Origin: Brachyspira pilosicoli
GTDB lineage: Bacteria > Spirochaetota > Brachyspiria > Brachyspirales > Brachyspiraceae
NCBI RefSeq assembly: GCF_008016535.1
Contig: NZ_SAXY01000064.1
Span: forward strand, 1-64,000
Length of the DNA stretch: 64,000 bases
Reading direction: 5' to 3'
Shown here in pieces: positions 51,477-59,563 of the stretch; within the stretch, counting starts at the first letter, position 1; each line of letters opens with the position of its first letter. Position numbers and translations under genes: made by a program. The notes beneath the pieces are model-generated. The model worked only from the letters and a program-made list of their open reading frames with translations. It did no database searches and was not told where the DNA came from.

Positions 51477-52763
51477 ATGACAGACGAATTAAAAATAAAA
51501 GCGTTAGAGTATCATTCAAAAGGAAGAGCTGGAAAAATAGAGGTTATAGCAACAAAGCCTTGTAAAACTGCTGATGATTTATCTTTAGCATATACTCCAG
51601 GAGTTGCTAAACCTGTACTTGAAATAGCAGATAATCCAAACGATGCATACAAATATACTTCTAAGGGAAACTTAGTAGCCGTTATTTCAAACGGAACTGC
51701 AATACTTGGTTTAGGTGATAGAGGGGCTTTAGCTTCAAAACCTGTTTATGGAAGGAAATGGTATATTATTCAAACGCTTTGCTGATATTGATGTTTTTGA
51801 TATAGAAATAAATGAAAAGAATCCTGATAAAATTATAGATATAGTGCATGCTTTAGAGCCTACTTTCGGAGGAATTAATCTTGAAGATATAAAAGCTCCT
51901 GAATGCTTTAAAATAGAAAAAACTCTAATAGAAAAATGCGATATACCAGTGTTTCATGATGACCAGCATGGTACTGCTATAATATGTTCTGCCGCTTTGA
52001 TTAATGCTTTAGAGATTTCAAATATAGACAAAAAAATGCCAAGATAGTTTTTAATGGTGCAGCTTCTGCGGGAATTTCTTGTGCTAAGATGTTTGTAGCA
52101 TTAGGAGTGCCTAAAGAAAATATAATTATGTGCGACAGTAAGGGCGTTATCACCAAAGAGAGAATAGAATCTGTTACAGAAGAGAAAAGAGAGTTTGCAA
52201 CAGATTTAAAAGTAAAAAATCTTGAAGAAGCTATGAAAGGGGCTAATGTATTTGCTGGGCTTTCTGTTGCTGATTGTGTTAGTGAGTATATGGTTAAATC
52301 TATGGCTAAAAACCCTATAATATTTGCTATGGCTAACCCTAACCCTGAGATACAATACGAAAAGGCAGTAGCTGTTAGAGATGATTTAATTATGGCTACA
52401 GGAAGAAGTGATTATCCTAATCAGATTAACAATGTATTAGGTTTCCCTTTCATATTTAGAGGTGCTTTAGATGTGAAGGCAAAGGCTATATCAGAAAAAA
52501 TGAAAATGGCTGCATCATTAGCTTTGGCGGCTCTTGCTAAAGAAAAAGTGCCTGAGGAAGTTTTTAGAGCTTATGGAAACAAGACTTTTGAGTTTGGTAA
52601 AAATTATATAGTGCCAAAACCTTTTGACCCAAGGGTTATCGAGTGGGTATCTCCTGCTGTTGCTAAGGCTGCTTGTGATGAAGGGCTTGCTAGAGAACCT
52701 ATTACTGATTTTGAAAAATATAAAGCTTCTCTAAAAGATAGAATGAAAAAATATTGGGATTAA
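51477..52763 (+). pseudogene. NAD(P)-dependent malic enzyme, frameshifted twice
   Basis: Three frames (51477-51785, 51748-52047, 52089-52763) assemble one malic enzyme: oxidative decarboxylation of malate to pyruvate. The first shift is near 51750, where an extra T turns [18 protein letters not shown] into a stop-bound frame. The second is near 52030: seven A where eight would give [20 protein letters not shown]. The two cancel, and the total of 1287 bases equals a normal 428-residue protein. Motifs otherwise intact: [51 protein letters not shown]. Either true inactivation after recent loss of selection or sequence errors. Confidence 0.87.
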
Positions 52764-53345: not shown

Positions 53346-54383
53346 TTAGGATTTTAAAAAATTCTTTATACATCTTGTCTGCTCATCATTTTTAAGCAAA
53401 AAAGCATCATGTCCATAATTTGATTTTAATTCGCAAAACTCAGTATCAATATTAAGTTCTCTATAAGCTTTTACTATATCCTCAGACTGATAACTCGGAT
53501 AAAGCCAATCTGACACAAATGATATTACAAGAACTTTATCTATAGAGTGCTTCTTTATATTTTTTATATCATTTCTCACATCAAACAAATCCATAGCCTT
53601 AGTAAGATATAAAAAACTATTAGCATCAAATCTCTCAGTAAACTTCTCCCCATTATAGTGCAAATAATTTTCCACTTCAAAAGAAGGAGTAAAATATTTT
53701 AAAGCCTTTTTTCTTCTTCTTCCAAATTTTTTTCTCATATATTCTTCGCTCATATATGTGATATGCCCAAGCATTCTCGCCAAAGCAAGCCCGTTATCTG
53801 GCGTGGATATGCCGTAATATTTTCCTCCATACCATTCTGAATCTTCTGTAATAGCCTCTCTTGCTATTTCATTAAAAGCTATTTGCATAGGTGAATGAGT
53901 CATACAGCTTGCTATAATGATTAATTTATCCATCATATTTGGGTAAGATGCACTCCACTCTAAAGCCTGCATCCCTCCCATAGAGCCGCCTACAACAGCA
54001 TAAAGCTTATCTATTTTCAAATAATCTATTAATAACTTTTGAGCCTTTACAATGTCTTTCATAGTGAAGCTTGGAAAATCTGTACCATAGCATAAATGAC
54101 TATTGGGCTTCTTTGATGAAGGACCAGTTGTTCCATAGCAGCCTCCAAGCACATTTGAACATATTACAAAATATTTATCTGTATCTATAGCTTTTCTCTT
54201 GCCCACAAAATTGCTCCACCAAGTTAAAACATCGCTGTCTCCTGTAAAAGCATGGCAAATCAATATGGCATTATTTTTTTTATCATTTAATTTACCGTTT
54301 GTAGTGTATGCTATTTTTAAATTATCTATAGCAGCAGAGTTTTCAAATTTAAAAGTTTTATTATAATCAAAATACTCTATCAT
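53346..54383 (-). CDS. metX: homoserine O-acetyltransferase
   Basis: 345 residues, alpha/beta-hydrolase of the MetX family. Nucleophile S134 in VGGSMGGMQALEW, oxyanion/N-terminal ILICHAFTGDSDV, Asp in SFVSDWLYPS and His in NYGHDAFLL. Makes O-acetylhomoserine from homoserine and acetyl-CoA for direct sulfhydrylation. It follows metY by 27 bp in the same transcript, hence under the same leader attenuator. Confidence 0.93.
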   Translation of the reverse strand: MIEYFDYNKTFKFENSAAIDNLKIAYTTNGKLNDKKNNAILICHAFTGDSDVLTWWSNFVGKRKAIDTDKYFVICSNVLGGCYGTTGPSSKKPNSHLCYGTDFPSFTMKDIVKAQKLLIDYLKIDKLYAVVGGSMGGMQALEWSASYPNMMDKLIIIASCMTHSPMQIAFNEIAREAITEDSEWYGGKYYGISTPDNGLALARMLGHITYMSEEYMRKKFGRRRKKALKYFTPSFEVENYLHYNGEKFTERFDANSFLYLTKAMDLFDVRNDIKNIKKHSIDKVLVISFVSDWLYPSYQSEDIVKAYRELNIDTEFCELKSNYGHDAFLLKNDEQTRCIKNFLKS

Positions 54384-54410: not shown

Positions 54411-55709
54411 TTATTTACTCGCTATAGTTAAAGCTTCATCAAGATAATATAATATATCATCTATATGCTCTATCCCTATAGAAAGCCTTATAAAGTTTTT
54501 AGTAATACCAGCATTTATTAACTCTTCCTCAGATAATTGAGAATGTGTTGTAGAAGCAGGGTGAGCTACCAAACTCTTAACATCTCCCACATTAACAAGA
54601 TGAGAAAATAGTTTTATATTGTCTATAAACTTAACAGCAGCATCATATCCGCCCTTTATGCCAAATACAACCATTCCCCCAAACTTATTATCTTTCAAAT
54701 ATTTTTTAGCTATATTATATGAAGCATCATTTTTAAGTCCCGGGTACCTCACCCACTCAACCCTATCGTCTTTCTCTAAAAACTCAGCAACCTTCATAGC
54801 ATTAAATGAATGCCTATCCATTCTCAAAGGCAAAGACTCCATTCCCTGTATAAATACCCAAGAATTATCAGGAGACAAACAAGCCCCTAAGTTTCTTAAA
54901 GGCACAGTTCTAAACCTCATAGCAAAAGCAATATCTCTTAATTCTTCAGGCAAATCATAAGCCCATTTTAAACCATGATAATTAGCATCAGGCTGAGTAA
55001 ATAATGTAAACTTATCATCTTTCCAATTAAACTTACCCGCATCTGTAACAGCCCCTCCAATACTGCTTCCATGCCCTCCTATCCATTTAGTAAGAGAGTT
55101 AATTACTATATCAGCTCCATAGTTTATTGTTTGAAGTAAATATGGAGTTGTAAAAGTACCGTCTACTATTAATGGTATATTATTATTATGTGCTATTTTT
55201 GCTACTTCTTCTATATCTGTAAAATCTAATGAAGGGTTTGATATTGTTTCTATATATATTACTTTTGTCTTTTTAGTAATTGCCTTTTCAAAGTTTTTTG
55301 GGTCTTTTGCATCAACAAAGTTTGTATTAATACCAAATTTTGGAAGTATGGCAGCAAACTGGGAATATGTGCCTCCATACAAACTAAAAGAGGACAATAT
55401 CTCATCACCAACCTCGCATATAGTAATCATTGTATTAAATATAGCACTAGTTCCAGAAGATACCGCTATAGAAGATTTTCCGTTTTCCATTGCCGTAATT
55501 CTCTTTTCTAATATATCTGCAGTAGGGTCTCCTAATCTTGTGTAAATATAGCCTAACTCTTTTAAATCAAATAAGTCAGCAGCATGTTTAGAGTTTTTGA
55601 ACATATAAGATGTTGTTTTATATATAGGTACACCTCTGCTTCCAAATACATCATTATTTTCTTGTCCTGCATGAACAGATAAAGTTTCAAATTTTAATTG
55701 TCTTGACAT
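54411..55709 (-). CDS. metY: O-acetylhomoserine sulfhydrylase
   Basis: 432 residues, PLP-dependent Cys/Met metabolism family, the length of MetY rather than the shorter CGS/CBL enzymes. Motifs: ETLSVHAGQ start, SSGTSAI, YGGTYSQF, DGTFTTPYLL, PLP lysine in INSLTKWIGGHGSSIGG, and HPASTTHSQLSEEEL. Converts O-acetylhomoserine and sulfide to homocysteine. Shine-Dalgarno TAGGAG five bases before the ATG. The 5' leader of about 200 bases carries an attenuator (55754-55875). Confidence 0.95.
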   Translation of the reverse strand: MSRQLKFETLSVHAGQENNDVFGSRGVPIYKTTSYMFKNSKHAADLFDLKELGYIYTRLGDPTADILEKRITAMENGKSSIAVSSGTSAIFNTMITICEVGDEILSSFSLYGGTYSQFAAILPKFGINTNFVDAKDPKNFEKAITKKTKVIYIETISNPSLDFTDIEEVAKIAHNNNIPLIVDGTFTTPYLLQTINYGADIVINSLTKWIGGHGSSIGGAVTDAGKFNWKDDKFTLFTQPDANYHGLKWAYDLPEELRDIAFAMRFRTVPLRNLGACLSPDNSWVFIQGMESLPLRMDRHSFNAMKVAEFLEKDDRVEWVRYPGLKNDASYNIAKKYLKDNKFGGMVVFGIKGGYDAAVKFIDNIKLFSHLVNVGDVKSLVAHPASTTHSQLSEEELINAGITKNFIRLSIGIEHIDDILYYLDEALTIASK

Positions 55710-55753
55710 ATAAACTCCTAAATATTTTTATTATATTATATTTAAAATAAAAA

Positions 55754-55838
55754 AGCCGCCAAAAAAATTTGACGGCTGTAATTACAAATTTATATTTATT
55801 ATATTATGCAGCCGTAATTGTTTTTTGCATTTGCATAA
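55754..55838 (-). promoter_or_regulatory. transcription attenuator in the metY leader (strands 1-4)
   Basis: Read on the minus strand. Strand 1 TTATGCA (55838-55832, including a Met codon of the leader ORF) can pair with TGCATAA (55810-55804). Strand 2 ACGGCTG (55815-55809) can instead pair perfectly with strand 3 CAGCCGT (55778-55772). Strand 3 also pairs with strand 4 (AGCCGTC with GGCGGCT, 55777-55771 and 55760-55754), followed by TTTTTTATTTT, a rho-independent terminator about 45 bases before metY. The three pairings are mutually exclusive in the order 1:2, 2:3, 3:4. A ribosome stalled at the Met codons would free strand 2 and allow read-through. Structures seen in sequence; mechanism inferred. 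Confidence 0.8.
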
Positions 55839-55875
55839 GACAAAGCTGATTCTTAATAATAACTGCATTATTCAT
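55804..55875 (-). CDS. 23-residue leader peptide with Cys/Met codons upstream of metY
   Basis: ATG at 55875-55873, TAA at 55806-55804. The middle reads ...Gln-Leu-Cys-Leu-Met-Gln-Met-Gln-Lys..., two Met codons within three codons and one Cys codon. The last codons overlap strand 2 of the attenuator. The purine-rich AAGGA at 55894-55890 is 14 bases before the ATG, rather far, so initiation may be weak. A sensor peptide for charged Met-tRNA (or Cys-tRNA), not a functional protein. Confidence 0.72.
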   Translation of the reverse strand: MNNAVIIKNQLCLMQMQKTITAA

Positions 55876-55917
55876 AAATATTTTACATTTCCTTAAAATT
55901 TTATATTTTAATAATAT

Positions 55918-55946
55918 ATTGTATATAAAAAACATATTATTGTCAA
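55918..55946 (-). promoter_or_regulatory. promoter of the metY-metX operon
   Basis: TTGACA (55946-55941), 17-base spacer, TACAAT (55923-55918) on the minus strand. Transcription should start near 55911, giving a 36-base lead-in to the leader peptide ATG. Confidence 0.8.
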
Positions 55947-58394: not shown

Positions 58395-58919
58395 TTGTAT
58401 AAAATATTACTTTTAACAATATCTATTATATTTGCATCTTGTAATGAAAAAGAGGTGAAAAATATAATAGCACAAACGAATAACATTACATCAAAGAATG
58501 ATGCTGCTAATAATGAATCTAACATAAAAGTATCTACATCAAAATTAACATCAAAAGAATATGAGGTACTAGTAAATAATGGGACAGAGTTTCCTTTTAC
58601 AGGTGAGCTTTTGGATGTAAAATCTGATGGAGTGTATACTTGTAAACTATGCGGCAGCTTATTATTTAAATCTGATGCTAAATTTAATTCTGGTACAGGC
58701 TGGCCTAGCTTTGATGATGCTATAATTGAGAATATAAAATTTGTAAAAGACGGATGCAGAGTAGAAGTAACTTGTGCAAAATGCGGAGGTCATTTAGGAC
58801 ATGTGTTCTACAATGAAGGCTTTACTGATAAAGAAACTAGATATTGCATTAATTCCGTATCTTTAAATTTTATAAACAAAGTTGATTTTGATAAAACTAA
58901 TAATAGTACAAATAAATAA
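58395..58919 (+). CDS. msrB: peptide-methionine (R)-S-oxide reductase, lipoprotein form
   Basis: 174 residues. TTG start, with AGGAG 7 bases upstream. Lipobox FASC with Cys16, linker, then the MsrB domain: SKEYEVLVNNGTEFPFTGE, zinc cysteines in CKLCGS and CAKCGG, FNSGTGWPSFDDA, GHLGHVFYNEG and the catalytic Cys in TRYCINSVSLNF. An envelope enzyme that repairs R-methionine sulfoxide in exported proteins. msrA follows after 20 bp. Confidence 0.92.
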   Translation: MYKILLLTISIIFASCNEKEVKNIIAQTNNITSKNDAANNESNIKVSTSKLTSKEYEVLVNNGTEFPFTGELLDVKSDGVYTCKLCGSLLFKSDAKFNSGTGWPSFDDAIIENIKFVKDGCRVEVTCAKCGGHLGHVFYNEGFTDKETRYCINSVSLNFINKVDFDKTNNSTNK

Positions 58920-58939
58920 TAATGAGGTAAAAACTATAT

Positions 58940-59563
58940 ATGAAAAAAATTGTATTAATGACAATAATATCCATATTTTCTTTAATATCCTGTAATGAAA
59001 AATTAAATAGCGAATCTTCAAATATTAAAGAATCTTCAAGTATTAAAGAAAATAAGGAGGAGAGGAAAATGATTCCAGAAAATGTTAAATATGCCTATTT
59101 TGCTTCAGGCTGTTTTTGGGGAACTGAATATTGGTTTGAAAAGGGCAAAGGAGTATATGCTGTTGTAAGCGGATATGCAGGAGGACATAAAATAAACCCA
59201 ACATATAGAGAAGTTTGCACTGGTCTTACAGGTCATTTAGAAACAGTACAAGTTGCCTATAACCCTGATGAAACTACTTATGAAGATTTAGTTAAACTAT
59301 TCTTTGAAACTCATGACTTTACTCAAAAAAATGGTCAAGGTCCTGATATAGGCTCACAGTATTTATCAGCTATTTTTTATCAAACAGAAGAAGAAAAAGA
59401 AATAGCTCAAAAATATATAGATATGCTTAAAGAAAAACGTTATGATGTGGCAACAACTTTAAGAGAATATAAAAACTTTTATCCAGCAGAAGATTATCAT
59501 CAAGATTATTATGAGAGAAAAGGCTCTATACCTTATTGCCATTTCTATAACAAAATATTTTAA
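58940..59563 (+). CDS. msrA: peptide-methionine (S)-S-oxide reductase, lipoprotein with possible internal start
   Basis: 207 residues from 58940. Lipobox LISC, Cys18, Ser/Lys linker, then MsrA from about residue 44: GCFWGTEYWFEKGKGV with catalytic Cys58, GYAGGHKINPTYREVC, GHLETVQVAYNP, FFETHDFTQKNGQGPDIGSQYLSAIF, DYHQDYYERK. The start at 58940 has GAGG 12 bases away, while an in-frame ATG at 59069 (Met44) has a perfect AAGGAGG nearby, so a cytoplasmic form lacking the lipid anchor is likely also made. Confidence 0.9.
   Translation: MKKIVLMTIISIFSLISCNEKLNSESSNIKESSSIKENKEERKMIPENVKYAYFASGCFWGTEYWFEKGKGVYAVVSGYAGGHKINPTYREVCTGLTGHLETVQVAYNPDETTYEDLVKLFFETHDFTQKNGQGPDIGSQYLSAIFYQTEEEKEIAQKYIDMLKEKRYDVATTLREYKNFYPAEDYHQDYYERKGSIPYCHFYNKIF

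Follow-up and report, generated by a model that had tools for sequence, protein, structure and literature searches.

The metY-metX genes of Brachyspira are best explained as being under the control of a ribosome-mediated (leader-peptide) transcription attenuator, a reading to which we assign a probability of about 85%. The region upstream of metY was studied in a window of 64,000 nucleotides of Brachyspira pilosicoli (contig NZ_SAXY01000064.1) and in related genomes. Between the promoter and metY lies an ORF with Met codons, followed by an intrinsic terminator and accompanied by a mutually exclusive antiterminator that shares strand 3 with it. The control codons are positioned just upstream of strand 2, and the stop codon is located in or next to this strand. 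These parts, their conservation and their geometry were read directly from the sequence (Table 1).

The metY leader and its surroundings

The identities of metY and metX are firm, as the NCBIfam models exceeded their cut-offs for both. The two genes are separated by 27 nt on the minus strand, and metX presumably belongs to the same operon as metY. The promoter, on the same strand, consists of a -35 element TTGACA (55946-55941) and a -10 element TACAAT (55923-55918) with a 17-nt spacer between them. A strict TTGA[CA]A-N17-TA pattern was found at the same place in 15 of the 21 other leaders and was unmatched in 6. The leader ORF starts with an ATG at 55875 and ends with a stop codon at 55806-55804; its Cys codon is at 55842-55840 and its Met codons are at 55836-55834 and 55830-55828. 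The promoter, the 23-codon ORF, its Cys, Met and Met codons and the RNA strands were all present on the minus strand where a preliminary description of this DNA had placed them. The same description saw a weak point in the distance between the Shine-Dalgarno sequence and the ATG. This holds for clade A, in which the gap is 13 nt and one leader (L002) lacks a recognisable motif, but not for most clade B leaders, where the gap is approximately 9 nt.

Table 1. Positions in the window of the metY leader elements and of the genes that they precede.
Feature	Position	Strand	Basis or conservation
Sigma-70-type promoter TTGACA-N17-TACAAT	55918..55946	-	sequence
Leader Shine-Dalgarno AGGAA	55889..55893	-	13 nt from ATG (sequence)
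Leader ORF, 23 codons, MNNAVIIKNQLCLMQMQKTITAA*	55804..55875	-	ORF present at this position in all 22 orthologous metY leaders
Conserved candidate strand 1 (protector), pairs with start of strand 2	55856..55863	-	RNAalifold, 14 sequences
Small hairpin over control codons	55826..55847	-	RNAalifold
Control codons TGT CTT ATG CAA ATG (Cys-Leu-Met-Gln-Met), proposed stall site	55828..55842	-	conserved core
Strand 2, ACGGCTG, overlaps last leader codons	55809..55815	-	its start precedes the stop codon by 9-14 nt, 22/22
Strand 3, CAGCCGTC, common to antiterminator and terminator	55771..55778	-	AGCCGTCA invariant
Intrinsic terminator hairpin AGCCGTCAAA-loop-TTTGGCGGCT and T-run (strands 3:4)	55749..55777	-	22/22
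metY, O-acetylhomoserine sulfhydrylase, regulated gene	54411..55709	-	TIGR01326 595.9 bits, cut-off 495.1
metX, homoserine O-acetyltransferase	53346..54383	-	NF001209 432.3 bits, cut-off 331

Three further features of the window may be recorded. Within the leader, an overlapping out-of-frame ORF with 7 Leu (MQLLLRISFVLCKCKKQLRLHNIININL) occurs at 55868 on the minus strand; it is probably due to chance, since clade B lacks its start ATG. Two adjacent ORFs on the plus strand (58395-59563), situated a few kb from metY-metX, resemble methionine sulfoxide reductases B and A, as judged from their translations only. Also by translations, a malic-enzyme-like gene on the plus strand (51477-52763) is split over three ORFs of 102, 99 and 224 aa in different frames, suggesting frameshifts or a decayed copy.

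Conservation of the leader ORF and its control codons

In the window species alone the excess of Met and Cys codons is not significant (three Met and Cys codons; P = 0.31 on dinucleotide shuffles), and the case therefore rests on the comparison of genomes. The genus set comprised 26 genomes, 22 of which have an orthologous metY (at least 82% identity); the leader was found upstream of metY in every one of these 22. Across the genus the ORF measures 21-27 codons and the whole leader 118-138 nt. The leader peptides are of two types, exemplified by MNNAVIMNMLCLMQMQKIITAA for clade A and MKTIIVMNKMFCLMQMCMFNNDGCQ for clade B. The Cys-Leu-Met-Gln core and at least two internal Met codons were present in all 22 leader ORFs. 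In clade B leaders, 4-5 internal Met codons are accompanied by 1-3 Cys codons, a content that reached P values of 0.009-0.04 on shuffles in the four leaders tested; for leader L010 a binomial P of 8e-7 was obtained. Outside the metY leaders, the 15-nt core had only two matches in the genus, both apparently inside other coding regions.

Within the core the Cys and Leu codons are preserved in 22/22 leaders and vary at the third base only (TGT/TGC, CTT/CTC). Of the two core Met codons one is kept in 21 leaders and the other in all 22; ATG and CAA are disturbed by nothing but a single in-frame deletion of 6 nt. Insertions and deletions within or before the core are of 3 or 6 nt, i.e. whole codons. 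Downstream of the core the frame is shifted in three leaders (L014, L016 and L018; MQMRIFIMMAV* and similar), and in these as well the stop codon keeps its distance from the beginning of strand 2. Counted from its first base, the last control Met is situated 13-18 nt ahead of strand 2; for the second core Met the distance is 15-19 nt. In these sequences the reading frame is thus protected as far as the control codons, and beyond them the position of the stop, in line with what the attenuation model requires.

An ORF without meaning, lying between a constitutive promoter and a partial terminator, would fit the Met and Cys content of the window species. Conservation of the ORF, the core, the stop position and the antiterminator in 22/22 leaders makes this explanation scarcely credible, and on this comparison the leader is evidently more than a product of chance. 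Leaders that had lost the ORF or its Met codons and kept the terminator were looked for in the 22 genomes; the ORF and the Met core were kept. This check, which the preliminary description had named as one that could refute the attenuator, thus spoke for it.

Riboswitches are common before met genes, and the block TGYCTYATGCAAATG shows high nucleotide conservation, as would be expected if the leader contained an undescribed metabolite-binding riboswitch and the ORF were incidental. Changes in the conserved block, however, fall at third codon positions or come in multiples of three, the length of the leader is variable, and the position of the stop codon is kept through frame shifts. In addition, Rfam gave no match to the leader at the gathering score, and a search at E values up to 10 gave sub-threshold matches only. 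A riboswitch is thus very improbable.

A somewhat less remote alternative, though still improbable, is an arrest peptide, in which the nascent ...C-L-M-Q-M... chain would stall the ribosome on a metabolite (e.g. S-adenosylmethionine or Met), after which the same switch would follow. TnaC and SpeFL are arrest peptides in which a metabolite triggers such a stall. The core Leu and Gln are conserved as much as Cys and Met, and a hydrophobic stretch is kept in the N-terminal part of the leader peptide. On the other hand, leader L003 dropped M-Q from its core (CLMQK) and retained everything else, and Met codons recur outside the core (alignment columns 7, 11 and 19). The Leu and Gln could also be accounted for by a hairpin into which the core nucleotides fold, and a Met run is likewise seen in the unrelated leader that two Brachyspira genomes carry before a Campylobacterota-type metY. 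An attenuator whose leader senses Met is the likely reading. The conservation of Leu and Gln does count against it, as the sensing of starvation would need Met only. That the C-L-M-Q core acts as a nascent-chain or dual Cys/Met sensor, which would read sulfur amino acid status and not Met-tRNA alone, is a tentative idea that we consider rather unlikely.

Alternative pairings and the position of the ribosome

Strand 4 (GGCGGCT) corresponds to 55760-55754, and the T-run reaches 55749 on the minus strand. As described earlier for the window, strands 2 and 3 pair over 7 bp without mismatch and strands 3 and 4 over 7 bp with one G-U; the latter helix extends to 10 bp via three A-U pairs. The antiterminator (2:3) and the terminator (3:4) with its T-run are both present in 22/22 orthologous metY leaders. 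Pairing statistics were determined on alignment A3, which contains 14 distinct leader sequences. The antiterminator core A[CT]GGCT:AGCCGT was found in 14/14 of them, and 92.9% of the antiterminator cells were paired, versus 10-62% when the partner was slid. From an alignment of relatives the preliminary description had hoped for conserved Met codons and for compensatory changes in the strands. The Met codons are kept, and a C-G/U-G change between the clades preserves the antiterminator pairing, but little covariation is seen, since strand 3 does not vary and so leaves no room for double-sided changes.

For strand 1 the comparison points to another candidate position. It had been proposed that TTATGCA (55838-55832) pairs with TGCATAA (55810-55804). 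This helix exists in the window, but it is not a conserved element: read from the upstream regions, its full 7 bp occur only in the window's species, with fewer pairs in the other clade A leaders and no counterpart in clade B. RNAalifold predicted the terminator together with a different 1:2 helix, in which nt 13-20 of the ORF pair with the start of strand 2 and which encloses the small hairpin over the control codons. In the 14 sequences, 96.9% of the cells of this upstream helix are paired, the figure for helix and hairpin together being 96%, and a single pair of the helix changes from A-U to G-C between the clades. This upstream strand 1 is modestly supported as a conserved candidate protector.

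To model the effect of translation on the pairings, the RNA was kept unpaired over a ribosome footprint reaching from 18 nt upstream to 10 nt downstream of the first base in the A-site. When the A-site was set on the first core Met in RNA that ended just after strand 3, the predicted probability of the 2:3 pairing was 0.88-1.00 in 22/22 leaders, and with the ribosome at the stop codon it was zero in 22/22, an outcome that depends on the footprint assumed. The last codon that permitted 2:3 was found 0-3 codons past the final control Met; 1-4 codons beyond this Met the probability was zero (22/22). When the full-length leader was folded at equilibrium the terminator dominated (0.95-0.97) at any position of the ribosome. 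This implies that the switch has to work kinetically, as attenuators usually do. In the model without a ribosome, 2:3 was often high before the emergence of strand 4, indicating weak protection. As this was seen in many leaders, a default-off role of 1:2 is suggested only faintly.

From these elements we infer the following sequence of events. RNA polymerase would transcribe the leader, with a ribosome following on the ORF of 21-27 codons. If Met-tRNA is scarce, the ribosome would stall at the C-L-M-Q-M(-x-M) codons, leaving strand 2 free to pair with the emerging strand 3, so that the terminator would be pre-empted and the operon transcribed. With ample Met, the ribosome would run on to the stop codon, located inside strand 2 or immediately behind it, and cover this strand; strand 3 would then pair with strand 4 and transcription would end at about 55749. 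When the leader is not translated, the upstream strand 1 may sequester strand 2, which would also favour termination. In this way the supply of charged Met-tRNA, and possibly that of Cys-tRNA as well, would govern the expression of metY-metX.

Other modes of control and known leader-peptide systems

SAM (S-box) riboswitches and Met T-boxes likewise control met genes by transcription termination. Covariance models for the SAM riboswitch (RF00162) and the T-box (RF00230) found nothing in the 26 genomes of the genus, whereas control genomes gave matches. A scan for similar leaders around metQ and hisG in the genus, in which the window's own metY leader appears only at a loose threshold, yielded nothing convincing. 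Inspection by eye of the region upstream of metY in 15 other spirochaete genomes revealed no Met-rich ORF with a terminator. As far as the searched literature shows, which took in few subscription papers and in which no spirochaete leader-peptide attenuator was found, the metY-metX leader would be the first to be described in a spirochaete; the preliminary description stands on this point. If the interpretation is correct, it would provide a conserved and testable answer to how methionine synthesis is controlled in a genus in which neither SAM riboswitches nor T-boxes are detectable.

Two of the genus genomes (G017 and G019) have no close metY. In G001 and G003 (the latter with a contig that matches the Brachyspira catarrhinii record L039) metY is only 44-45% identical to the other metY of the genus, and the MetY protein of G001 is 71-81% identical to that of Helicobacter and Campylobacter. 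These Campylobacterota-type genes (loci L023 in G001, L024 and L039 in G003) have a leader ORF of their own approximately 100-250 nt upstream, which ends in SMMMRVVAR* or SMMMRVCAR*, carries a GCGCG hairpin at its end and is unrelated to the main leader. Leaders of a similar build (e.g. SMMYMHTLVCK*) occur at the Campylobacter metY loci L047 and L050. The sequences suggest that in G001 and G003 metY may have been transferred together with a leader.

With the trp, his and leu attenuators of proteobacteria the Brachyspira leader shares control codons, a mutually exclusive antiterminator and terminator, and a stop codon placed such that the ribosome covers strand 2. It differs in that Met (perhaps also Cys) replaces Trp, His or Leu and in that strand 1 is weaker and placed differently. 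The novelty earlier attached to a methionine version of the trp/his logic was overstated, as a 20-aa MetL leader with three Met preceding metBA (cj1727c-1726c) was proposed for C. jejuni in 2013, with stalling and antitermination (PMC3847290), and its translation start was detected in 2025 by Ribo-seq methods (PMC11955535). Both systems have a short ORF with Met codons, a short terminated RNA, a methionine biosynthesis operon and the same proposed logic, but they belong to different phyla. In Streptomyces lividans a metL leader before metN was reported, which also places a Met-containing leader peptide ahead of a methionine gene; unlike in Brachyspira, this is a transport gene, the start is leaderless and no typical intrinsic terminator was reported (PMC8079986). 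The Campylobacter leaders compared (L046, L047, L050 and L085), several of which have a hairpin at the end of the ORF, show no sequence resemblance to the Brachyspira leader, whose origin consequently looks independent. Considered alongside MetL of C. jejuni and the unrelated leader that precedes the Campylobacterota-type metY in two Brachyspira genomes, this suggests that attenuators with Met codons evolved repeatedly ahead of the same metY/metX genes.
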